A model generated the notes under the pieces. That model had not been told where the DNA came from. It worked only from the letters and a program-made list of their open reading frames with translations, and did not search any database. The translations under genes were made by a program, and so were the position numbers. From contig JAIQFB010000002.1 in assembly GCA_020073485.1 (NCBI GenBank), positions 62,001 through 126,000 of the forward strand: DNA of 64,000 nt, given 5' to 3'. Position 1 is the first letter of the stretch; the number at the start of each line of letters is the position of its first letter. This DNA is from Terriglobia bacterium. Lineage in GTDB: Bacteria; Acidobacteriota; Terriglobia; Acidiferrales; UBA7541. Positions 52,230-63,382 of this stretch are shown piece after piece.

Positions 52230-53108
52230 TTACCCGCGCACGCTGAGCACAGGACAAATCGCCTGCCGCACAATCTTGTATGCCGTGGCCATCCCCAGGT
52301 GAGTTCTGGTCCCGGCAAACCGGGAAACATGTTTTGTTCCCAAGACAATCAAGTCCACGGCAAGCTCCTCGGCCATTTCAAGGACGACCTGCGGCGGATC
52401 ACCCGATTCGAGGAACACTTTCGGCTCGCACCACAATTTCGCGTCCGGCGGAATCAATGCGTGTATGCGGGACTTCAGGAAAGTTTCCTGCAGTTCATCC
52501 ACGGGCTCGGGTATCACATGCAATAAATAAAGCCGCGCATGATCTTCCTGCGCCAGGGAAACCGCGTACGGAAATGCGGCCATCGATTCGACGCTGAAAT
52601 CGGTGGGATACAGGATGGTATGGATATCCGCGACGCTTCCCGGCTCTCCGGAAACGTTTGGCCCAACGGTGAGGACCGGGCACGGGGCCTGCCGCAAGAT
52701 CCGCTCGGCGACCGATCCCATGAGCAGCTTGCTGGCCCCCGCCCTCCCGTGAGTTCCCACAACGATTAGATCGATTCCCTTCTTTTCCACAATGGAAGAC
52801 AACTCGCCCCAGATATCGCCGTCGCGAACGATAAACTCATGGGGAATTCCTCTCAAGGGCGCCTCCAGCGCCTTCATGCTGGCGCGAGCTTCCTTCATGG
52901 CTTGCGCGGCGAGGGCCTGCAATTCCACGGTTGGCGGAGCCGCGCCGAGAGGAGAAGTGGAATGCACGTGTGCGGCAATAACCGTCGACCCGTACTTTCG
53001 TGCAATCGAAACGACGTAAGGAAGCGCTTCGCTGGAGTGCCTGGAAAAATCCGTTGCAAACAGAACATTCTTCAGGGAAACCTGCGCGGAAGCCATTGGC
53101 GCTGGCAT
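52230..53108 (-). CDS. Tandem universal stress protein (two USP domains)
   Basis: The 292-residue protein has two UspA folds (about 8-150 and 158-290). The first has the complete nucleotide-binding motif in VVGTHGRAGASKLLMGSVAE (G-x2-G-x9-GS). The second is altered (VLGTKHVSRFAGTRTHLGMA), so it may not bind ATP. GAGGAGG precedes the ATG at 53108; an open frame further upstream is not used. It is divergent from the P-type ATPase gene with a CRP-type box between them. Confidence 0.93.
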   Translation of the reverse strand: MPAPMASAQVSLKNVLFATDFSRHSSEALPYVVSIARKYGSTVIAAHVHSTSPLGAAPPTVELQALAAQAMKEARASMKALEAPLRGIPHEFIVRDGDIWGELSSIVEKKGIDLIVVGTHGRAGASKLLMGSVAERILRQAPCPVLTVGPNVSGEPGSVADIHTILYPTDFSVESMAAFPYAVSLAQEDHARLYLLHVIPEPVDELQETFLKSRIHALIPPDAKLWCEPKVFLESGDPPQVVLEMAEELAVDLIVLGTKHVSRFAGTRTHLGMATAYKIVRQAICPVLSVRG

Positions 53109-53191
53109 GACCCACCTCCTCGCGGCACTTGTTCGTAATTTACGATACCTCTTCTTGGGAAGCTCCATCGGTGACCACGCGCACGCCGGAA

Positions 53192-53207
53192 TGTGATCTT
53201 GGTCACG
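53192..53207. promoter_or_regulatory. CRP-type box between usp and the P-type ATPase gene
   Basis: TGTGATCTTGGTCACG matches TGTGA-N6-TCACA at nine of ten fixed positions. It lies in the 191-base divergent gap and could serve both genes. For the usp gene a -10-like TATCGT (53142-53147, minus strand) places the box near -64. For the ATPase gene the promoter is unclear. Confidence 0.7.
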
Positions 53208-53299: not shown

Positions 53300-55888
53300 T
53301 TGGAGTACGGGTGCAGGCTGCGCCTGGAACCCGCCAGATGGTGGAAGGCAAGGATAATCCCCATTCCGCAAAATACTCAAACCGGCGCCGTGAATGCGCC
53401 CGACGCGCTCATCGGCCTGACCAGCAAGGAAGCGCAAGAGCGTCTCTCGCAATATGGTCCCAACGATCCCACGCCGGTAGCGCGCGGCGCGATCGTCCGC
53501 GAAGTCCTTGCGTTGTTTCTGAATCCGCTCGCGGTCATACTTCTGATCGCCGCCGTGATTTCGGGAATCTTGGGGCAGACCGCGGACGCGGGAATCATCT
53601 TCGTGATGGTTGTGCTGGGCGTCTCGATCAATTTCGCGCAAACCTACCGGTCGCAGCGCGCCATCGAGCACCTCCGGGAACACGTCAGCCTGACGGCGAC
53701 CGTGATGCGCGACCAGACGTGGCAGGAAGTGAAGCGCCACGAAGTGGTCCCGGGAGATCTCGTCCGGCTCTCCGCCGGGGACCTGGTTCCGGCCGACGGA
53801 CAACTTTTGCAGGCGCGCGATCTTTATGTCCAGCAGGCCGCACTAACCGGCGAATCCATGCCCACGGAAAAGGATGCAGGGCCTGCGGACGCCAAACCCG
53901 GAGGAGGTCCGGATACTCGCTACCTGGTTTTTCTGGGAACGTCCGTGGTCAGCGGCACCGGCATGGTTCGCATTCTGGCCACCGGGGCGCGGACCATGTT
54001 TGGCGCCATCGCCAAGCGCCTGGTGGTTCGGCCCGAGGAAACCGAATTTGAACGGGGTTTGCGCCGGTTTGGCATGCTCATTATGCGCGCCGTGTTTTTT
54101 CTGGTTTTCTTCATTCTTGCGACGCGCATCGCGCTTCACAAAGATGCCTTTGAATCCTTCGTATTCGCCGTCGCACTGGCCGTTGGGTTGACGCCCGAAT
54201 TCCTGCCCATGATCACTTCGGTGACGCTGGCGCGCGGCGCGGTTCGCATGGCGCGCGATCAAGTAGTGGTGAAACGCCTGCCCGCGATTCAGAATTTCGG
54301 AAGCATCGACATCTTCTGCAGCGATAAAACCGGAACGCTTACAACCGGCGTGATGACGCTGGAGAATTCCGTGGACGTATCGGGCAAGCCTTCGGATCGC
54401 CCGTTTTCTCTCTCTTACCTAAATAGCCAGTTTGAAACCGGCATCCGCAGCCCTCTGGATGCGGCGATCCTGAAGACCACAAACCCGAATACGGAAAATT
54501 ATCGCAAAGTCGATGAAATCCCGTTCGATTTCAACCGGCGGCGCCTCTCCATCATCGTCGAGCGCGACACTCCGCAGGGTTCGGAGAAGCTGCTCATTAC
54601 CAAGGGCGCACCGGAAGGGATTATCGCGCTTTGCGATTCGTTCGAGGCCGGAAAAGAATCGCGGCCCGCAGAATCCCAGGGCGCAGATCAGGCCCGGAAG
54701 ACGTATCAGTCGCTGTGCAGCAAGGGCTTTCGCGTACTGGCCGTCGCTTCCCGCCTCGTCCAGGGCAGCGGCGGGTTTTCGCCGGCCGATGAACACTCTC
54801 TCGCCCTCGCGGGATTTCTGGCGTTTGCGGACCCTCCGACCGCGGATGCTGCCGAGTCCGTTGCGGCCATGAAGCGAGACGGTATTCAGGTGAAAATTCT
54901 GACCGGGGACAACGAACTGGTGGCGCAGAACGTTTGCTCCTGCGTGGGCCTGGAAAATCCGACGGTCGTCCTCGGCGATGACCTCGACCAAATGACCGAC
55001 ACGGCGCTGGCCCACGTGGCCGAGCAAGCCACCATCTTTGCGCGCGTTTCGCCCATGCAAAAACTGCGCATCATTCTGGCGTTGAAGCATCGCGGCCATG
55101 TGGTGGGCTACATGGGCGACGGAATTAACGACGCTCCCTCGCTACACGCCGCCGATGTCGGGATTTCCGTTGCGTCCGCCGTCGACGTGGCGCGCGACGC
55201 CGCCGACATCATTTTGCTCCAGCCGGGCCTGGCCATTCTTCACCGCGGAATCATCGAGGGCCGCAGGGCCTCGGCGAACGTCCTGAAATACCTGCTGATG
55301 GGCACCAGCTCCAATTTCGGAAACATGTTCAGCATGGCGGGGGCTTCCGTGTTCCTTCCCTTCCTCCCCATGCTGTCCACGCAAATTCTGCTGAATAACT
55401 TTCTTTACGACGCGGCGCAGATCACCATTCCATCCGACAATGTGGACGATTCCTATGTCCGCAGCCCGCAACGCTGGGATATGCGCCTGATCCGCAATTT
55501 CATGATCTTGATCGGCCCCATCAGTTCGATCTACGACTTCCTGACGTTCTATGTTCTGCTGCATTTCTTTCACGCCAGCGAGCCGCTGTTTCATACCGGC
55601 TGGTTTGTGGAATCGCTGGCCACGCAGACACTGGTCCTGTTCGTGATTCGCACCATGGGCAATCCGTTGAAAAGCAGGCCCAGCCTCCCGTTGGCGATCA
55701 CCACCATCGCGATGGTCGTCATCGGCATATTGCTCCCCGTATCGCCCCTGGCGCGCATCCTGGGCTTTGTCCCGCTCCCGGGCCCGTTCTTTGCTTTTCT
55801 GGCCATTTCCATTGTGACTTACATGCTTCTGGTGGAGTTCGCGAAGCGCCTGCTCTTTTCCAGACTCCCCGCGCCGGCCGTTCCTTGA
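53300..55888 (+). CDS. MgtA-like P-type ATPase (magnesium/cation transport)
   Basis: The 862-residue membrane protein has a P-type ATPase N-terminal region (ALIGLTSKEAQERLSQYGPN), the TGES phosphatase motif (LTGESMPTEK), phosphorylation site D342 in CSDKTGTLTTGVMTLE and the hinge MGDGINDAPSLHAADVGISV. The C-terminal helices contain LLNNFLYDAAQITIPSDNVD. That block and the P3B-like layout match MgtA/MgtB magnesium transporters. The start is uncertain: a TTG at 53300 is first in frame, and a GTG at 53390 begins closer to conserved sequence. Confidence 0.88.
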   Translation: MEYGCRLRLEPARWWKARIIPIPQNTQTGAVNAPDALIGLTSKEAQERLSQYGPNDPTPVARGAIVREVLALFLNPLAVILLIAAVISGILGQTADAGIIFVMVVLGVSINFAQTYRSQRAIEHLREHVSLTATVMRDQTWQEVKRHEVVPGDLVRLSAGDLVPADGQLLQARDLYVQQAALTGESMPTEKDAGPADAKPGGGPDTRYLVFLGTSVVSGTGMVRILATGARTMFGAIAKRLVVRPEETEFERGLRRFGMLIMRAVFFLVFFILATRIALHKDAFESFVFAVALAVGLTPEFLPMITSVTLARGAVRMARDQVVVKRLPAIQNFGSIDIFCSDKTGTLTTGVMTLENSVDVSGKPSDRPFSLSYLNSQFETGIRSPLDAAILKTTNPNTENYRKVDEIPFDFNRRRLSIIVERDTPQGSEKLLITKGAPEGIIALCDSFEAGKESRPAESQGADQARKTYQSLCSKGFRVLAVASRLVQGSGGFSPADEHSLALAGFLAFADPPTADAAESVAAMKRDGIQVKILTGDNELVAQNVCSCVGLENPTVVLGDDLDQMTDTALAHVAEQATIFARVSPMQKLRIILALKHRGHVVGYMGDGINDAPSLHAADVGISVASAVDVARDAADIILLQPGLAILHRGIIEGRRASANVLKYLLMGTSSNFGNMFSMAGASVFLPFLPMLSTQILLNNFLYDAAQITIPSDNVDDSYVRSPQRWDMRLIRNFMILIGPISSIYDFLTFYVLLHFFHASEPLFHTGWFVESLATQTLVLFVIRTMGNPLKSRPSLPLAITTIAMVVIGILLPVSPLARILGFVPLPGPFFAFLAISIVTYMLLVEFAKRLLFSRLPAPAVP

Positions 55889-55959: not shown

Positions 55960-55975
55960 TATGACGCAAATCACA
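55960..55975 (+). promoter_or_regulatory. CRP-type box upstream of the second usp gene
   Basis: TATGACGCAAATCACA matches TGTGA-N6-TCACA at nine of ten fixed positions. It lies about 81 bases before the second universal stress gene. An overlapping second inverted pair at 55971-55986 (TCACA-N6-TGTGA) is in the everted orientation. Confidence 0.6.
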
Positions 55976-56048
55976 TTGCATTGTGACTTGGCGCATAGCC
56001 TCCCTTTTGATAACCGCTTAAAAGTAGTTAAGGGCGGGGAGTAAGAAA

Positions 56049-56993
56049 ATGAATACCGACAACGCAAATGAACGCCGGTCCCGGATTCCAGACTCAGCGC
56101 AATGGAGACATGCGGTGAATATGCTCCAGACAAACGGACAGGTCCCTTTCCAGAATATTTTATTTGCGACGGATTTCTCATCCACGACACAACTGGCCTT
56201 GCCCTACGCTGTCAAGATGGCCCAAAGATCGGGTGGAAAAATATATGTGGTCCACGTGATTTCCCGGGACATCTACCCCCTGGTGCCACCTGAAGAGTGG
56301 GCAAACATGGAGCAAAGCGAGGCGGAGTTCCGCAAAAGCAATCAACGCGCATTGGATGCGGAATTGTCGAATATCCCCCACGAATTTCTTTTTCCCTCGG
56401 GCGACGTCTGGAAACAACTTTCTCGAATTATCGATGAGAAACAGATCGACTTGGTGGTTTTGGGCACGCACGGACGCACGGGAATCAGCAAGACAGTGTT
56501 CGGATCGGTCGCGGAGCGGATTTTCCGGCAAGCAGCATGTCCAGTGTTGACGGTTGGCCCTCGCGTGTCTTTCCGGGCCGATCATCCCGCGACCAGAGAG
56601 GTGAACCGGATTCTGTACGCGACCGATTTCAGTCCGGATTCTCTGGGGGCAGCGCGCTATGCCATCTACCTGGCAAAGGAATTTCACGCAGGTCTGGCCT
56701 TGCTGCATTCGATCCAAAAGGCCGAAGCAGGGCAAGTGAACTCCGCGTTTGAGACGCTACGGGATATAGTTCCACTCGGCGCAGGCCTTGCTGAGAAACC
56801 AAAGTGCACGGTCGAGCGAGGTGCCCCGGCGGAATCCATCCTGGGAGTTTCCTTGAGGGAGAATGCCGATTTGATTGTCCTCGGCATTGGGCACGCCAAA
56901 CTAAGCGCCGCGGTCGGGACGCATTTTGCGCGTTCCATTGCTTATAAAGTTGTTACTCAGGCGGAATGCCCTGTCCTGACGGTTCGAGGCTGA
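56049..56993 (+). CDS. Tandem universal stress protein (two USP domains)
   Basis: The 314-residue protein again has two UspA domains (about 33-180 and 187-314). The first carries an intact motif (VLGTHGRTGISKTVFGSVAE). The second ends with VLGIGHAKLSAAVGTHFARS, where the motif is degenerate. It is a paralogue of the protein encoded at 52230-53108. GGGGAG precedes the ATG. It is preceded by a CRP-type box and followed by an inverted repeat. Confidence 0.93.
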   Translation: MNTDNANERRSRIPDSAQWRHAVNMLQTNGQVPFQNILFATDFSSTTQLALPYAVKMAQRSGGKIYVVHVISRDIYPLVPPEEWANMEQSEAEFRKSNQRALDAELSNIPHEFLFPSGDVWKQLSRIIDEKQIDLVVLGTHGRTGISKTVFGSVAERIFRQAACPVLTVGPRVSFRADHPATREVNRILYATDFSPDSLGAARYAIYLAKEFHAGLALLHSIQKAEAGQVNSAFETLRDIVPLGAGLAEKPKCTVERGAPAESILGVSLRENADLIVLGIGHAKLSAAVGTHFARSIAYKVVTQAECPVLTVRG

Positions 56994-57502: not shown

Positions 57503-58039
57503 TTACTTCGCGGCCTTGGCCTCGACTCGAACCGTCTTGGCATGGGCGGCCTTCGGCAATTCAATATTGAGGATGCCGTCTTTCAATGTCGCGGTTGTCT
57601 TTGGGCCGTCGACTTCGGCGGGCAAATCAAACGATCTCAGAATCTCCTTCGCGGTTCGCTCGGAGTAGATCGTCTTGCCCTTTGTGGTCTCTTCCTTGGA
57701 TTCATGTTTTCCGGCAATGGTCAGCCGACGGGGTTCCACGGTGATGTCCAGTTCGTTGGTGGCAAATCCGGGCACTTCCGCCCGAACGGTCAGGGCCTCG
57801 TCCGTCTCTGCCACATCCAGGTGTACGGGTTGCAGGATCTCGGATTCGGCGCGGAGCCAATCGTCCAGTTCGCGGCCGAACCACCGTCCGTTTCTTTCAA
57901 AGATATCGAAGGCTCTTCGAGCGATCGAGTCATAGGATTGTTGAAGCCGGTCGAAGACATCCATGGTGCCCGTTTGTTTGACGGGCGGTGGTGCCTTGGC
58001 GGGCTGTGCGGCTATTGCTGCTTGCGCTTGCGCGGCCAT
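57503..58039 (-). CDS. Hsp20 small heat-shock protein with N-terminal DUF2934 segment
   Basis: The 178-residue protein has an alpha-crystallin domain (about 72-165: VAETDEALTVRAEVPGFATN, then LTIAGKHESKEE, ending GILNIELPKAAHAKTVRVEA). Before it, residues 36-66 (SIARRAFDIFERNGRWFGRE followed by LDDWLRAESEI) match the DUF2934 pattern, a fusion to a segment usually found in other proteins. Hsp20 proteins hold unfolded proteins without ATP. It is divergent from the PAS-sigma54 activator, with a CRP-type box placed as for a class II activated promoter. Confidence 0.9.
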   Translation of the reverse strand: MAAQAQAAIAAQPAKAPPPVKQTGTMDVFDRLQQSYDSIARRAFDIFERNGRWFGRELDDWLRAESEILQPVHLDVAETDEALTVRAEVPGFATNELDITVEPRRLTIAGKHESKEETTKGKTIYSERTAKEILRSFDLPAEVDGPKTTATLKDGILNIELPKAAHAKTVRVEAKAAK

Positions 58040-58185: not shown

Positions 58186-58201
58186 TGTGCGCTGCATCAC
58201 A
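58186..58201. promoter_or_regulatory. CRP-type box between hsp20 and the sigma54 activator
   Basis: TGTGCGCTGCATCACA matches TGTGA-N6-TCACA at nine of ten fixed positions. The surrounding arms AGCTGTG and CACAGCT are a perfect inverted repeat. It lies in the 327-base divergent gap, which otherwise shows no gene. Confidence 0.65.
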
Positions 58202-58366
58202 GCTAGACGTATCTGATCTCACCGTTCCAACAATTCTGCTAGAATCGGCTGCATCGCAAGGCCACGGCGCCCATTTCCATACGCCTCTTGAATCCGGTCG
58301 GGAAGTATGCTCTTCTGTAAGTATTCAGTCAGTATTGGCCTGCCGAAAGCGTGGGGATGAGATAAT

Positions 58367-60166
58367 ATGAGTGCGTCGTCAGGACTAATGCCGCAACCCT
58401 CTCAGCCGCAAGCACTTTTCGAGAAGCTGTTCGAATTCTCTCCCGACGCCATCGTAGTGACGGACGCGCAAGGCCACATCACTTCAGTCAACGCGCAAGT
58501 CGACAAGACATTCGGATATAAACGTGAGGAACTTATCGGCCAGCCCATCGAAATCCTCGTGCCGGAGCGGTTCCGCCAGGGCCATCCGCAGCACCGCCAG
58601 ACCTACACAGCCCATGCGAGCGTTCGCCCCATGGGCGCGGGCCTGGAACTTTTCGGCCGGCGCAGGGACGGCAGCGAATTCCCGGTAGACATCATGCTCA
58701 GCCCGGTGGACACGGCCGAAGGCCCCGTGGTGCTGAGCGTTATCCGGGATATTTCCGACCGTAAGAAAGCCCAGGAAGCCATCCAGCGCAGCGAACAGCT
58801 GTTTCGCGCGCTCTTCGAGTTCTCGCCGGATGCGATCATTGCCAGCGATGCCGACGGAAGAATCACAAGTGTGAACGCGCGGGTGGAATCCTCGTTCGGC
58901 TACAAGCGGGATGAATTGTTGGGTCAATCCGTCGATATTTTGGTTCCGGAACGTTTCCGCCGCGCTCACCCCGACCGGCGCAAGGAATATGGCGCGAAAG
59001 CCAGCGTGCGGCCCATGGGCGCGGGCCTGGAGCTTTACGGCCGGCGCAAGGACGGCAGCGAATTCCCGGCCGACATCATGCTTGGTCCGGTGGAGACGGC
59101 GAAAGGGCGAGTCGTCCTCAGTGTGATTCGGGATCTGACGGAGAAACGAGAGGCGGAGGAAGCCCTGCGGCGAAGCGAGCAGGAGCGGCGGTATCTGGAA
59201 GAGGAACTCAGCACCGAGTCCAAGTTCGAGGAGATCATCGGCGAAAGCGTCGGCTTGAAACGCGTCCTGAAACATGTCGAGACGGTAGCGGCAACCGACG
59301 TGACCGTTTTGATTCTCGGCGAGACCGGCGTCGGAAAGGACGTCATTGCCAGAGCCATTCATTATCTGAGCCCCCGAAATGAGCGCACACTAGTGAAGTT
59401 GAATTGCGCGGCCATCCCGACTGGGCTTCTGGAGAGTGAATTATTCGGGCACGAAAGAGGGGCGTTTACCGGAGCGATTGACCGGAAAATCGGCCGCCTG
59501 GAACTGGCGCATAAGGGCACCCTGTTCCTGGATGAAATTGGCGATCTACCCCTGGAGCTGCAGCCGAAGATCCTCCGCGCCTTACAGGAAAAGGAATTTG
59601 AGAGGCTCGGCAGCACGCAAACCATTCCGGTGAACGTGCGGTTGGTCGCGGCCACCAATCGGGACCTGGCGCAAATGGTGGCCGACCGGACATTCCGCAG
59701 CGATCTTTATTACCGCCTGCGCGTTTTTCCGATCCTGCTTCCCCCCTTGCGCGAGCGCCGCGAAGACATACCGCTTCTGGTCCGCTACTTCGTCGATAAG
59801 CACGCCCGGCGGCTTTATAAGAAAATCGAAACCATCGAGCCGGCCACCATGCGCGCCTTGACCCGCTGGGATTGGCCGGGAAACATCCGCGAGCTGGAGA
59901 ATTTTGTCGAGCGCGCCGTCATCCTCACGAAGGGCCCGGTCCTTCGCGCTCCTCTGGCTGAGTTGGAATTGCCGGAAGAAGCCAGGCCGGTGGAGCAGGA
60001 TGCCACCCTGGAGGCTAAGGAACGAGAACATATCCTTCGCGTGCTCCGCGAAACAAAGGGCAAAATTTCAGGACCGCATGGAGCAGCCGCTAGGTTAGGT
60101 CTAATCCGGACTACATTAAATTCCAAACTAAAGAAAATGGGAATCGAACGAAAAGACTATATATAG
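58367..60166 (+). CDS. PAS-PAS sigma54-dependent activator
   Basis: The 599-residue cytosolic regulator has two near-duplicate PAS domains (about 12-135 and 140-265, both with [11 protein letters not shown] and RDGSEFP/KDGSEFP). A sigma54 AAA+ domain follows (about 290-525; [41 protein letters not shown]), then a C-terminal Fis-type helix-turn-helix ([20 protein letters not shown]). It is FhlA/NorR-like in layout, with PAS in place of GAF. The signal is unknown; redox or oxygen is possible. A sigma54 promoter and an inverted repeat lie directly downstream, the likely targets. Confidence 0.92.
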
Positions 60167-60173
60167 TCAAAGC

Positions 60174-60189
60174 TGACGATTTTTCGTCA
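60174..60189. promoter_or_regulatory. Perfect inverted repeat, possible enhancer site
   Basis: TGACGATTTTTCGTCA has six-base arms (TGACGA/TCGTCA) around TTTT. It is 106 bases upstream of the sigma54 -24 element, the usual distance for an activator enhancer, and overlaps by one base the CRP-type box that follows. Confidence 0.55.
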
Positions 60190-60204
60190 GTGATTTTCGT
60201 CACA
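60189..60204 (+). promoter_or_regulatory. CRP-type box upstream of the STAS-crp pair
   Basis: AGTGATTTTCGTCACA matches TGTGA-N6-TCACA at nine of ten fixed positions. It lies upstream of the operon that encodes the CRP/FNR-family protein itself, suggesting autoregulation. Confidence 0.6.
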
Positions 60205-60294
60205 ATTATGCGATTTCACCACTCGATCTCGAAAATTTTGCTCTAACTCCCCACGCCTCATTGAATTAGAAGATATCCCCACAATTTGCTCATT

Positions 60295-60310
60295 TGGTTC
60301 CTTGATTGCA
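60295..60310 (+). promoter_or_regulatory. Sigma54-type promoter of the STAS-crp pair
   Basis: TGGTTCCTTGATTGCA has -24 TGG and a perfect -12 TTGCA with ten bases between GG and GC. The predicted start is near 60321, 24 bases before the STAS-like start codon. Confidence 0.75.
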
Positions 60311-60344
60311 CTTACAAGGTTATAAGTTGGAGCGAACAATTCGA

Positions 60345-60626
60345 ATGTTAAGAGTGACGGTTAGTAATAGTTATGGTGAGCCTGTGACACTGAAGATAGA
60401 GGGAAAGCTTGCGGGAAAAAGGGTTTCGGAGCTGGATCGAGCATGGCAGGCTATGGCGCCTTCCTTGTCATCAAAAGGGCTTGTTGTTGACCTTCGCGGC
60501 GTGACCTTTGCCGATGCGGAAGGAAGGCGAGCGCTGGCCAACATTCATTCCAAGACCGGCGCGGAATTCTTGGCGGATACGCCTCTGACCAAGTACTACG
60601 CAGACGAGGCGCTAAAGGGAATTTGA
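60345..60626 (+). CDS. Small STAS-like protein
   Basis: The 93-residue protein follows the STAS/anti-sigma-antagonist pattern: VTLKIEGKLAGKRVSELDRA, KGLVVDLRGVTFADAEGRRA and LANIHSKTGAEFLAD. The phosphorylatable Ser before the second motif is replaced (FADAEGRRAL), so it may act by binding rather than as a switch. GGAG lies 12 bases before the ATG at 60345; the earlier in-frame start at 60306 would begin inside the promoter. It is 34 bases upstream of the CRP/FNR gene. Confidence 0.75.
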   Translation: MLRVTVSNSYGEPVTLKIEGKLAGKRVSELDRAWQAMAPSLSSKGLVVDLRGVTFADAEGRRALANIHSKTGAEFLADTPLTKYYADEALKGI

Positions 60627-60660: not shown

Positions 60661-61461
60661 ATGAAGGGTCCATACGGATTGGAATTGAACGATGGCTGCA
60701 AGTCTTGCAAGCTGAGCGGGGCGGGATTTTTCTGCCATCTGGGCCCTGCCGCGGTGAAGGAATTTGACGCGATCAAATCCACCTCGACTTATCCGAAAGG
60801 CGCTCTCCTGTTCGTTGAAAAACAGGATGCCCGTGGAGTTTTCGTGCTGTGCCAGGGAGAAGTGAAGCTCTCGATCAGCTCGAGCGAAGGCAAAACGCTG
60901 ATCATGAGGATTGCGCGCGCCGGCGAACTACTGGGCCTGGTCGCCGCCATGGCGGGGACCGCTTACGAGGTTACCGCCGAGACCATCCATCCCTGCCAGG
61001 TTGCCTTTGTGCGCAAGGAAGACTTCCAGCGGTACCTCGCCAACCATCCCGATGCCTCCAAGAACGTTTTTAACCAGATGAGCTCCCAGTACACCGACGC
61101 CTGCGAACAGCTGAGAACCGTCGGCCTGTCGTCCTCGGCCAATGAAAAACTCGCCCGGCTCCTGCTGACCTGGTCTGCGCGGGCGCCGAAGACAAGAACA
61201 GGAACGCACATCACCATGCCGCTGACGCACGAGGAGATCGCGGAATTCATCGGCACCACTCGCGAGACAGTTACCCGCACCTTGAGTGAATTCAAGAATC
61301 GTCAACTGATTTCCATTCAGGGATCGGCGCTCAACATCCCGGATCGCGCGGCACTGGAAGACATGGCGAACGTTTCGGAACCTTTTAGAGGATCCGGCCA
61401 TGCTGTGCCTGTCAAAGAGACCGCCAGCGCCTGGCGGCTACGCATGGATCGTGTGCAGTGA
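60661..61461 (+). CDS. CRP/FNR-family regulator with N-terminal cysteines
   Basis: The 266-residue protein has a cyclic-nucleotide-binding-type beta barrel (about 30-145) and a winged helix (about 175-245; THEEIAEFIGTTRETVTRTL). The recognition helix RETVTR has the Arg-Glu-x3-Arg of CRP, which reads GTGA. The N terminus has C13-x2-C16-x8-C25, and C112 lies where FNR has its fourth cluster ligand, so an iron-sulfur or redox sensor is plausible but the spacing differs from FNR. A ribosome-binding site (GAGGAGG) precedes the ATG. A C-terminal tail of about 30 residues is unassigned. Confidence 0.88.
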   Translation: MKGPYGLELNDGCKSCKLSGAGFFCHLGPAAVKEFDAIKSTSTYPKGALLFVEKQDARGVFVLCQGEVKLSISSSEGKTLIMRIARAGELLGLVAAMAGTAYEVTAETIHPCQVAFVRKEDFQRYLANHPDASKNVFNQMSSQYTDACEQLRTVGLSSSANEKLARLLLTWSARAPKTRTGTHITMPLTHEEIAEFIGTTRETVTRTLSEFKNRQLISIQGSALNIPDRAALEDMANVSEPFRGSGHAVPVKETASAWRLRMDRVQ

Positions 61462-61567: not shown

Positions 61568-63382
61568 ATGAAATTTGGCGTGCTCGCGCTGGACTACGAT
61601 GGAACGATCGCCCGGGACGGAGTCCTGGACCCGGAAGTGAGAAAAGCCATCGCGGAAGTGCGCGCCCACGGTATTGCGGTGTTGCTTGTGACCGGCCGAA
61701 TTCTCAGCGAACTGCAACAGGTTGCCGGGGACCTGCATTTCGTCGATGGCGTGGTCGCCGAAAATGGCGCGGTCTTGTGGTTTCCTAACGGCCATTCGCG
61801 GCTCATTTCCAATTCCTCATCTCTTCCCCTTCTGCAGGAGCTCAGCCGGCGCGGCTTGCAGTTTAAGGCCGGTCAGTGCGTGGTGGAACTGGATGCTTCT
61901 GCCGCTCCACAAGTCCTTTCCGTGATCCGAGATCTGGAATTGCCCTTTGTGCTGCTGTTCAACCGGGGGCGGCTCATGGTGCTTCCCCAAGCGGTCAGCA
62001 AAGGCATGGGGTTGCGCGAGGCGCTGGCAACGTTGCGACTCTCGGTTCACAACGCGTTGGCCATTGGGGACGCGGAAAACGATCACGATCTTCTCGCTAC
62101 GTGTGAGCTGGGAGTCGCAGTGAGCTGGGGCAGCCAGGTTCTGCAAAAAGTCGCGGATGAGGTCTTGCGGGGAGACGGTCCAACCGCAGTCGCCGGATAC
62201 ATCCGGCGGGTAGCGTTGGAATTAAGGCTCCCGCCGGAACGCATCGGTCAACACCGGCTGTCGCTGGGAGTTGCGGAAGACGGACACGAATTGACGCTTG
62301 CACTTCGTGGACGAAATATGCTCATTGCGGGTGATCCCCGGTCCGGAAAATCCTGGGTGACTGGGTTGGCCTGCGAGCAGTTGATTCTTCAGGGCTATTC
62401 GGTTTTCGTGATCGATCCGGAGGGCGACTACCGCACGCTCGAAGCGCTGCCGGGAATCGTTGTCTTTGGGGGAGACGATCCTCCCCCGGAATTGCCGGTA
62501 TTGGCTCGCGTGCTCCGGCATCCCGACATGAGTGTTGTGATGGATCTTTCGCACGCACCGTATCAGGAAAAAGTGAGTTATTTGAAATCTCTGCTTCCCA
62601 TGCTGGCCGCGATCAGGAGAGCCACGGGCTTGCCGCACCGGATCGTGATCGATGAAGCGCATTATTTCCTGCACGAACCGAACGTGGGTGAATTGCTGGA
62701 CCTCGCGCTGGGCGCATACACGCTGGTTACCTACCGCATGTCCGACCTGCACCCCAATCTACGCCGGGCGATTGAAGGCGTGATCATCAAGCGCACAACC
62801 GAACCGCGAGAAATTCAGGCCCTGACCGATATTTTGGCTGCCAGAGGGACCGGAGCCGAGAGCATGAACATTCTCTCTTCACTGGGCATGGAGGAAGCTG
62901 TTCTGCTCCCGGGGATTGAAGAATCCAGGAACAAACTGGTGAAATTCAAGCTGTTCCCGCGTTTGACGTCTCACGTCCGGCATAAAGCCAAATATCTCGA
63001 TGTGCAATTGCTCGTCGAGCAAGGATTTTCGTTTACGGATAAGGGGACGGTCCTTGATGGTCCCGCGCGAACGCTGAAGGAATTTGTCGGCCAATTGGTC
63101 ACTGCCCCGCCTGATGTGGTTGCCGAACATGCTCACCGCGGGGATTTTTCCAACTGGATCGGCGGTGTATTCCACGATCATGCGTTGGCTTCCGATGTCC
63201 GCAAGGTGGAACAACGGTTTCGCATCGGTCACATTCATGATCTCTCCGATTCCATCGCAAAATTGATCCGGGAAAGGTACGAATTTTCCGCAGAACAACT
63301 CCCCGTGGCCACGATGGATTCCGCTGCCTCGGCGTCCGACACAGAAAGCTCACGCATGGCCCGCGCCGGCAACGGCGGATGA
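61568..63382 (+). CDS. Fusion of Cof-type HAD phosphatase and HerA-like ATPase
   Basis: The 604-residue protein joins two enzymes. Residues 1-210 are a HAD-IIB phosphatase: D9-Y-D11-GT in LALDYDGTIARDG, a conserved Lys (SKGMGLREAL) and the metal motif GDAENDHDLL. Residues of about 215-520 are a P-loop ATPase with Walker A G255-DPRSGKS and Walker B RIVID362-E363-AHYF, close to HerA/FtsK-type ATP-binding proteins. The last 85 residues are unassigned. No membrane segment is seen. The start has only a weak ribosome-binding site. The role is unknown; its position after the CRP/FNR gene suggests a stress function. Confidence 0.82.
   Translation: MKFGVLALDYDGTIARDGVLDPEVRKAIAEVRAHGIAVLLVTGRILSELQQVAGDLHFVDGVVAENGAVLWFPNGHSRLISNSSSLPLLQELSRRGLQFKAGQCVVELDASAAPQVLSVIRDLELPFVLLFNRGRLMVLPQAVSKGMGLREALATLRLSVHNALAIGDAENDHDLLATCELGVAVSWGSQVLQKVADEVLRGDGPTAVAGYIRRVALELRLPPERIGQHRLSLGVAEDGHELTLALRGRNMLIAGDPRSGKSWVTGLACEQLILQGYSVFVIDPEGDYRTLEALPGIVVFGGDDPPPELPVLARVLRHPDMSVVMDLSHAPYQEKVSYLKSLLPMLAAIRRATGLPHRIVIDEAHYFLHEPNVGELLDLALGAYTLVTYRMSDLHPNLRRAIEGVIIKRTTEPREIQALTDILAARGTGAESMNILSSLGMEEAVLLPGIEESRNKLVKFKLFPRLTSHVRHKAKYLDVQLLVEQGFSFTDKGTVLDGPARTLKEFVGQLVTAPPDVVAEHAHRGDFSNWIGGVFHDHALASDVRKVEQRFRIGHIHDLSDSIAKLIRERYEFSAEQLPVATMDSAASASDTESSRMARAGNGG

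Follow-up and report, generated by a model that had tools for sequence, protein, structure and literature searches.

The stretch of DNA analysed here (the window; 64,000 nucleotides) contains a gene for a putative PAS-PAS sigma54 activator that is followed, after a gap of 181 bp, by genes for a small STAS-domain protein and a CRP/FNR-family regulator. The question raised by this locus is whether the gap holds the control region through which the activator switches on the regulator, and whether the regulator, in turn, controls itself and the neighbouring genes, as suggested in an earlier note on this DNA. The genome comprises 5.05 Mb, and the related-locus search gave one relative, a Terriglobia (Acidobacteria) MAG; Acidobacteria are common in soil.

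Organization of the locus

The claimed order, that is, activator, gap, STAS and CRP genes, was recovered, and the elements within the gap follow one another as inverted repeat, CRP-type box and sigma54 promoter:

58367-60166, plus strand: gene for a PAS-PAS sigma54 activator (bacterial enhancer-binding protein) with a Fis-type HTH (Pfam: two PAS, Sigma54_activat, AAA_lid_14)
60174-60189: putative enhancer, inverted repeat TGACGA-N4-TCGTCA (two half-sites), kept in orthologous gaps and covarying with the activator helix
60190-60203 (60189-60204 with flanks): CRP-type box GTGA-N6-TCAC, GTGATTTTCGTCAC, composite with the third half-site
60197-60202, plus strand: putative third half-site of the enhancer (TCGTCA), 13 bp downstream of the second, overlapping the CRP-type box
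60295-60310, plus strand: predicted sigma54 promoter (-24/-12), TGGTTCCTTGATTGCA, with GG and GC cores 12 bp apart and a predicted +1 at about 60321
60329-60332, plus strand: probable ribosome-binding site, GGAG, read from the sequence
60345-60626, plus strand: gene for a small STAS-domain protein of 93 aa (STAS_2, E 0.00067, under the Pfam cut-off)
60661-61461, plus strand: gene for a CRP/FNR-family regulator of 266 aa, with the recognition helix RETVTR and an N-terminal C-x2-C-x8-C group

The activator gene ends with the stop codon at 60164-60166, and ATG 60345 is the likely start of the STAS gene because the alternative start in the ORF list, TTG 60306, overlaps the -12 element of the promoter. 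The activator translation contains GAFTGA, which we take to be a motif of sigma54 activators with an AAA domain; the HTH_8 match is marginally below the Pfam cut-off, and Pfam lists no receiver or kinase domain in this protein. Classical anti-anti-sigma STAS proteins carry a phosphorylatable serine within a D-S-S-G motif. This serine motif is absent from the STAS protein of the window, which has ADAEG at the expected place, and the protein probably does not belong to this class. Among the 18 members of the STAS family, STAS_2 was matched by 11 and STAS by 8 in Pfam. Farther downstream, at 61568-63382, a HAD hydrolase domain is followed by a HerA-type ATPase stretch within one gene, an unusual fusion that adjoins the STAS-CRP genes also in the loci L052, L054 and L055.

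Comparison of related loci

The first comparison set consisted of 21 loci, namely, the window and L052-L071, chosen as STAS matches. The gene order activator-STAS-CRP is present in 13 of the 21; three contain the activator and STAS genes without a CRP gene (L058, L063, L071), four contain STAS-CRP without an adjacent activator gene (L062, L065, L067, L070), and one contains STAS alone (L068). Another 20 loci were added, 19 from a class-wide search (399 genomes, 152 positive) and one, L123, from a second activator-STAS pair on contig C19 of the same genome. All p-values given below overstate significance, given that the compared rows are related and that thresholds were set after inspection of the data; the same applies to the shuffles of the promoter, the partner box and the tandem boxes of the window, in which single letters were permuted.

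The gap is 175-196 bp long across 14 family loci; among distant members of the family, likeness of the gaps, judged by eye, is mostly limited to the enhancer and the promoter. The comparative alignment of the gap that the earlier note had proposed as a check showed that the enhancer and the sigma54 core are kept among related loci.

A conserved putative sigma54 promoter

Considered alone, the -24/-12 match is near chance level: with at most one mismatch, the window contains 53 such matches compared with 38 expected. Of 40 loci, 36 have the YGG-N10-GC core 20-90 bp upstream of the STAS start, compared with 3.8 loci on average and at most 12 in 2000 shuffled sets. The misses are L132, L138, L139 and L140; L139 and L140 were counted as such although they have promoter matches (at -32 and -34) slightly closer to the start than the scored stretch. 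Two matches in L067 are weak and probably due to chance; L069, in which the STAS start is mis-set, was left out of this count, and its gap contains TGGTTCCTCGATTGCC. The genome encodes rpoN together with the AAA-domain activator. The promoter that had been placed at 60295-60310 is, then, present with a core shared by nearly all compared loci, and the comparative evidence convincingly indicates that the repeat and the promoter exceed chance.

A putative enhancer that changes with the recognition helix of the activator

The inverted repeat reported at 60174-60189 is indeed perfect (TGACGA-TTTT-TCGTCA). The inverted repeat and the CRP-type box, in its right half, share a direct repeat, TTTTCGTCA, at 60181-60189 and 60194-60202, so that the putative enhancer would consist of three half-sites. 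The pattern TGACGA-N4-TCGTCA is not enriched in the genome: with at most one mismatch, it has this one site, compared with four for the reversed-pattern control, and no further copies were found elsewhere in the 5.05 Mb. In orthologous gaps, the conserved repeat lies at least about 100 bp upstream.

Enhancer and helix were compared for 26 loci in which an activator gene is adjacent. Among the 20 activators with the helix TTLNSK, 19 are accompanied by a better fit to TGACGA-N4-TCGTCA and none by a better fit to TGCCGA, with one tie; for the five activators with TLQS, TGCCGA-N4-TCGGCA fits better in four and TGACGA in none, again with one tie. One activator reads TLHAK. The association is significant (Fisher 1e-4 for the non-tied, related rows, that is, leaving out L064 and L129, which tie, and L132, which is of the H type), with several weak fits: L136 matches 9 of 12 letters, and L054, L058 and L063 favour their pattern by a single letter. 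Sequence comparison thus strongly supports the view that the PAS-PAS activator encoded upstream uses the TGACGA half-sites as its enhancer and that these change with its recognition helix.

The same genome provides further instances. The sole perfect TGCCGA-N4-TCGGCA in 5.05 Mb lies on contig C19, between an activator gene (helix RTTLQSK) and a STAS gene; allowing one mismatch, there are 17 sites in the genome and 19 in the control, with no enrichment. The sensor part of the C19 activator is, in our reading, GAF-like. In the activator-STAS pair on contig C45, the helix is PNTLRNR and the promoter, TGGCAAAGCATTTGCA, matches the consensus; neither a TGACGA nor a TGCCGA palindrome was found in the region of that pair. 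Both additional pairs (G000:C19:59388-60048, loci L039 and L123; G000:C45:52135-52702, locus L038) have their own sigma54 promoters, and the three activator-STAS modules of the genome are apparently insulated from each other. The DNA-binding domain of the window activator has three weaker relatives in its own genome (56%, 46% and 45% identical).

A second STAS-CRP operon of this genome (G000:C36:98299-98589) retains the promoter, and its enhancer has diverged to CGACGA-N4-TCGCCA plus TTCGTCA. Because its vicinity contains only an 86-base match to the 3' end of the activator gene and the enhancer, this operon is probably served in trans.

The CRP/FNR-family regulator

Among 16 orthologues of the regulator, Cys13 and Cys25 are present in all and Cys16 in 15; the cysteine of a central 'HPC' is found in 14. 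The recognition helix is RETVTR in 15 of the 16 and RESVSR in L065. RETVTR conforms to R-E-x-x-x-R, the pattern of CRP-like recognition helices. Two paralogues in the same genome have the same cysteines and helix, and the helix recurs in several paralogues. Matches of the protein to FNR structures begin at residue 13. FNR, a 4Fe-4S oxygen sensor, carries C-x2-C-x5-C plus a central cysteine; the spacing C-x2-C-x8-C of the window protein differs, and the protein was accordingly not classed as FNR. A redox or oxygen signal for this regulator would be a guess.

A CRP-type box overlapping the putative third half-site

The CRP-type box had been placed at 60189-60204, and GTGA-N6-TCAC indeed occupies 60190-60203 plus flanks; its right half is shared with the third enhancer half-site. 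We anchored 16 of the 18 family loci by hand on TCGTC of this half-site, and L060, L066, L067, L068 and L071 were left out of the box analysis for want of an anchor; L060 and L066 have no TCGTC at this position. TCGTC is thus found in 16 of the 16 anchored rows, a count that is partly circular because the anchors were set on it. TCGTCA is present in 14 of these rows, at least seven of the eight box letters in 9, and the exact box in 8, so the other 8 have no exact box at the composite position. The better-kept half of the composite box, on this comparison, appears to be the one that belongs to the activator enhancer.

A partner box (at least six of eight letters, a threshold picked after the data were seen) lies at +22/+23 in 7 of the 9 rows with a good box, compared with 0 of the 7 others (Fisher 0.003), and none of 5000 single-letter shuffles reached seven partners. 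In the window and in L052, the first box lacks a partner at +22/+23, and the composite box of the window is thus single, in contrast to the tandem boxes at the presumed targets, described below.

Exact boxes within 260 bp upstream of the STAS gene occur in 12 of 41 loci. All 12 are among the 25 loci with a CRP gene, compared with 0 of the 15 without (Fisher 0.001, post hoc and on related rows; L125 was left out, since only 498 bases of its contig follow the STAS start), and the other 13 loci with a CRP gene have no exact box within this distance. The claim that the regulator controls itself gains support from this confinement. In L066 and L069, the exact box lies 2-3 bp upstream of the -24 element. 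A CRP-family site near the STAS promoter apparently tends to be retained when the CRP gene belongs to the operon; some members of one family have such a site, as judged by sequence, overlapping the third half-site of the activator. In L052, the nearest relative, a second exact GTGA-N6-TCAC spans -43 to -30 before the STAS gene, over the -12 element of the promoter; this box is a natural candidate for direct repression by CRP.

Tandem boxes and the putative second tier

Perfect copies of GTGA-N6-TCAC number 2 in the window and 172 in the genome, compared with 30 for the control. We dropped this plain enrichment as proof of a regulon of the window regulator: an excess over the reversed control was found in all 61 of the 61 relatives searched, and because of this excess of single boxes a test for tandem boxes with a 22-bp step was adopted. 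The excess extends to genomes without a STAS match, so many of these sites probably serve other CRP paralogues, and the window regulator may have few targets of its own.

In the window, tandem boxes were found at three places next to the following genes (letters matched out of 16; single-letter shuffles):

52233-53168 (approximate frame), minus strand: USP gene, divergent, left of the first boxes
53171-53206 (53171/53193): tandem CRP-type boxes, 22-bp step, 15/16 letters, 0/5000 shuffles, between the divergent USP and P-ATPase genes
53300-55888, plus strand: P-ATPase gene, right of the first boxes
55961-55996 (55961/55983): tandem CRP-type boxes, 22-bp step, 13/16 letters, 4/5000 shuffles, upstream of a USP gene
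56049-56993, plus strand: USP gene, downstream of the second boxes
57503-58039, minus strand: Hsp20 gene, divergent from the activator gene
58187-58222 (58187/58209): tandem CRP-type boxes, 22-bp step, 13/16 letters, 5/5000 shuffles, in the divergent Hsp20/activator gap

L052 and L055 retain the USP block, with the first box of the 55961 pair found and the second seen by eye; the Hsp20/activator gap contains box pairs in L054 and L055 and a single box in L052. The presence of these boxes before the P-ATPase/USP, USP and Hsp20/activator genes favours the claim that the regulator controls its neighbours.

Genome-wide, 71 tandem sites with the 22-bp step were found at up to three mismatches, compared with 10 in the control; tallied from the list, 5 of these match exactly and 19 with one mismatch, and 2 of the 5 exact pairs lie just upstream of CRP paralogue genes. 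Across 37 genomes, we counted 64 exact pairs with 0-30 bp between the boxes, compared with none in the control; 53 of the 64 have the 22-bp step, in a tally in which related genomes may share sites. Such exact close pairs are present in 19 of these genomes and absent from 18. The 22-bp tandem boxes look like a general CRP-family code, independent of the STAS-CRP operon, and CRP-family proteins, to judge by these patterns, probably bind them.

Among the sites listed, with gene types assigned by a simple script that takes the closest long frame, other tandem sites adjoin genes for USPs, HypD, a pyruvate:ferredoxin oxidoreductase-like protein, phosphofructokinase, a phosphoribosyltransferase, a BON protein and a molybdopterin oxidoreductase, as well as TonB-receptor-like, secreted, transport or unnamed frames. 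Pfam was run on a sample, namely, nine tandem-site frames chosen for interest and the P-ATPase of the window; the frame of L144 had no family. A role of the tandem-box set in low oxygen or energy stress might be inferred by analogy. Similar tandem boxes (L176:1515, 6719 and 9309; L168:1517) precede large genes that appear, by eye, to be TonB-receptor-like.

The proposed circuit and its rivals

The explanation that we consider best, and probable as a whole, is that the gap is the control region of a two-gene STAS-CRP operon, with a sigma54 relay feeding a tandem-box regulon with feedback. The PAS domains would sense a signal, and the activator would bind its three TGACGA/TCGTCA half-sites (60174-60202, some 119-147 bp upstream of the transcription start), loop to the sigma54-RNA polymerase at 60295-60310 and open transcription of the STAS-CRP genes at about 60321. 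This step, from activator through sigma54 to STAS-CRP, is very probable and is the best founded part of the scheme; the relay from a PAS activator to a CRP-family regulator that the earlier note had suggested is strongly supported by the conservation of the promoter core (36 of 40 loci) and the covariation of enhancer and helix. The CRP-type product would then bind GTGA-N6-TCAC boxes, often as 22-bp tandem pairs, before the P-ATPase, USP and Hsp20 genes, and also before the activator gene and other CRP paralogues. Because the CRP-type box spans the third half-site, the product bound there would most likely compete with the activator and damp its own synthesis; damping is likewise suggested by L052, L066 and L069, where exact boxes overlap or adjoin the promoter. 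We lean, with some reserve, toward negative rather than positive feedback.

The main rival to damping, which we hold possible and clearly the less likely of the two, is that the regulator at the composite box aids the activator, by bending or co-activation, so that feedback would be positive and the circuit would latch. Sites at this distance (100-125 bp upstream) could bend the loop, and CRP-type boxes also precede the activator gene; however, the box directly overlaps an enhancer half-site, the exact boxes of L052, L066 and L069 overlap or abut the promoter, and the precedent in PMC3900584 is inhibition of a sigma54 promoter by CRP. It is also conceivable, but rather unlikely, that the box is merely a third enhancer half-site with a chance GTGA on its left. 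Such a reading would fit the better conservation of TCGTC and TCGTCA than of the exact box in the anchored rows, and also the seven f11 loci with a CRP gene (L124, L126-L128, L130, L131, L133), which often carry additional copies of the half-sites and have no exact box overlapping these; in two of the seven, an exact box lies elsewhere in the gap (just downstream of the half-sites in L124 and upstream of them in L133). Against it, GTGA and the +22/+23 partner co-occur, although the sequence beyond is saturated; the box palindrome is kept with different spacer letters in L053, L054, L057, L062, L064 and L070; and the exact boxes are confined to loci with a CRP gene following. A tentative reading, to which we give about the same weight as to positive feedback, is that the composite enhancer works as a molecular switch: the TCGTCA(C) element would be read by both activator and regulator, so that the regulator would oust the activator of its own operon, giving a pulse, and the 22-bp pairs would be a Terriglobia 'double-dimer' code (two CRP-family dimers side by side on one helix face) common to several CRP paralogues, with the window regulator as its sigma54-driven entry point.

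The remaining rivals concern the enhancer and the promoter themselves, and both appear improbable. The inverted repeat, with its 8-pair stem, T-rich loop and tail, and position a few bases 3' of the activator stop codon, resembles an intrinsic terminator of the activator gene. We rejected this reading as highly improbable: one terminator-like site was found compared with 0.6 expected by shuffling, the tail, GATTTTCGTC, has no proper T run, the letters of the repeat are kept beyond what pairing demands, with both arms changing together with the activator helix, and the repeat persists without an adjacent activator gene in L062 (it has diverged in L070). Scarcely more probable is an operon driven mainly from another promoter, by read-through from the activator gene, with a vestigial sigma54 site. 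The chance-level frequency of single -24/-12 matches would allow this, but the core is kept across the compared loci, and a simple consensus scan of the plus strand at 60050-60600 found no sigma70-like site. The preferred reading, a sigma54 relay with CRP-type feedback, is the one placed next to known systems below.

Relation to known systems

In the rhizobial FixLJ-FixK relay, PAS sensing leads through a CRP/FNR-family regulator to a low-oxygen or stress gene set. As in FixLJ-FixK, PAS sensing at this locus would switch on a CRP/FNR-family regulator; unlike in that relay, the PAS domains are part of a sigma54 activator without a kinase or receiver domain, the promoter is of the sigma54 type, and a STAS gene belongs to the operon. 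One-component activators of the FhlA/NtrC type share the combination of sensor, AAA domain and Fis-type HTH, a conserved enhancer at least 100 bp upstream and an adjacent target, whereas here the target is a CRP-family regulator and the enhancer overlaps a CRP-type box. The likeness to FNR consists in the N-terminal cysteine group, the CRP fold and the HypD and pyruvate:ferredoxin oxidoreductase-like genes near tandem boxes; the cysteine spacing (x8, not x5) and the CRP-like helix differ. Hsp20, USPs, a cation ATPase, phosphofructokinase and a phosphoribosyltransferase recall the mycobacterial DosR dormancy regulon, a likeness of gene lists only, since the regulator family and the DNA site are different. 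The sequence evidence supports a variant of known systems in which a one-component sigma54 relay leads to a CRP-family regulator and the enhancer is composite.

Three half-sites also make up a predicted activator site in a figure legend of PMC4641369. In PMC3900584, CRP inhibits the sigma54 promoter Pu and CRP-cAMP poises the polymerase; a CRP-family protein would act on a sigma54 promoter in both cases, the difference being that here the box overlaps an activator half-site. Among the matches listed from the open-access literature, none concerned a sigma54 or CRP network in Acidobacteria.

The site offers a concrete, testable circuit. The matched set of enhancers and helices (TGACGA with N, TGCCGA with Q) is useful for decoding the specificity of sigma54 activators, the tandem CRP-type box predicts a stress regulon genome-wide, and the C36 operon is a natural test of trans activation.

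In L071 and in loci with frames of about 550-630 aa, the STAS sequence lies inside a much longer frame. Because the STAS frame of L071 continues, in our reading, into a TolC-like outer-membrane sequence, this arrangement suggests that the module often serves efflux genes.
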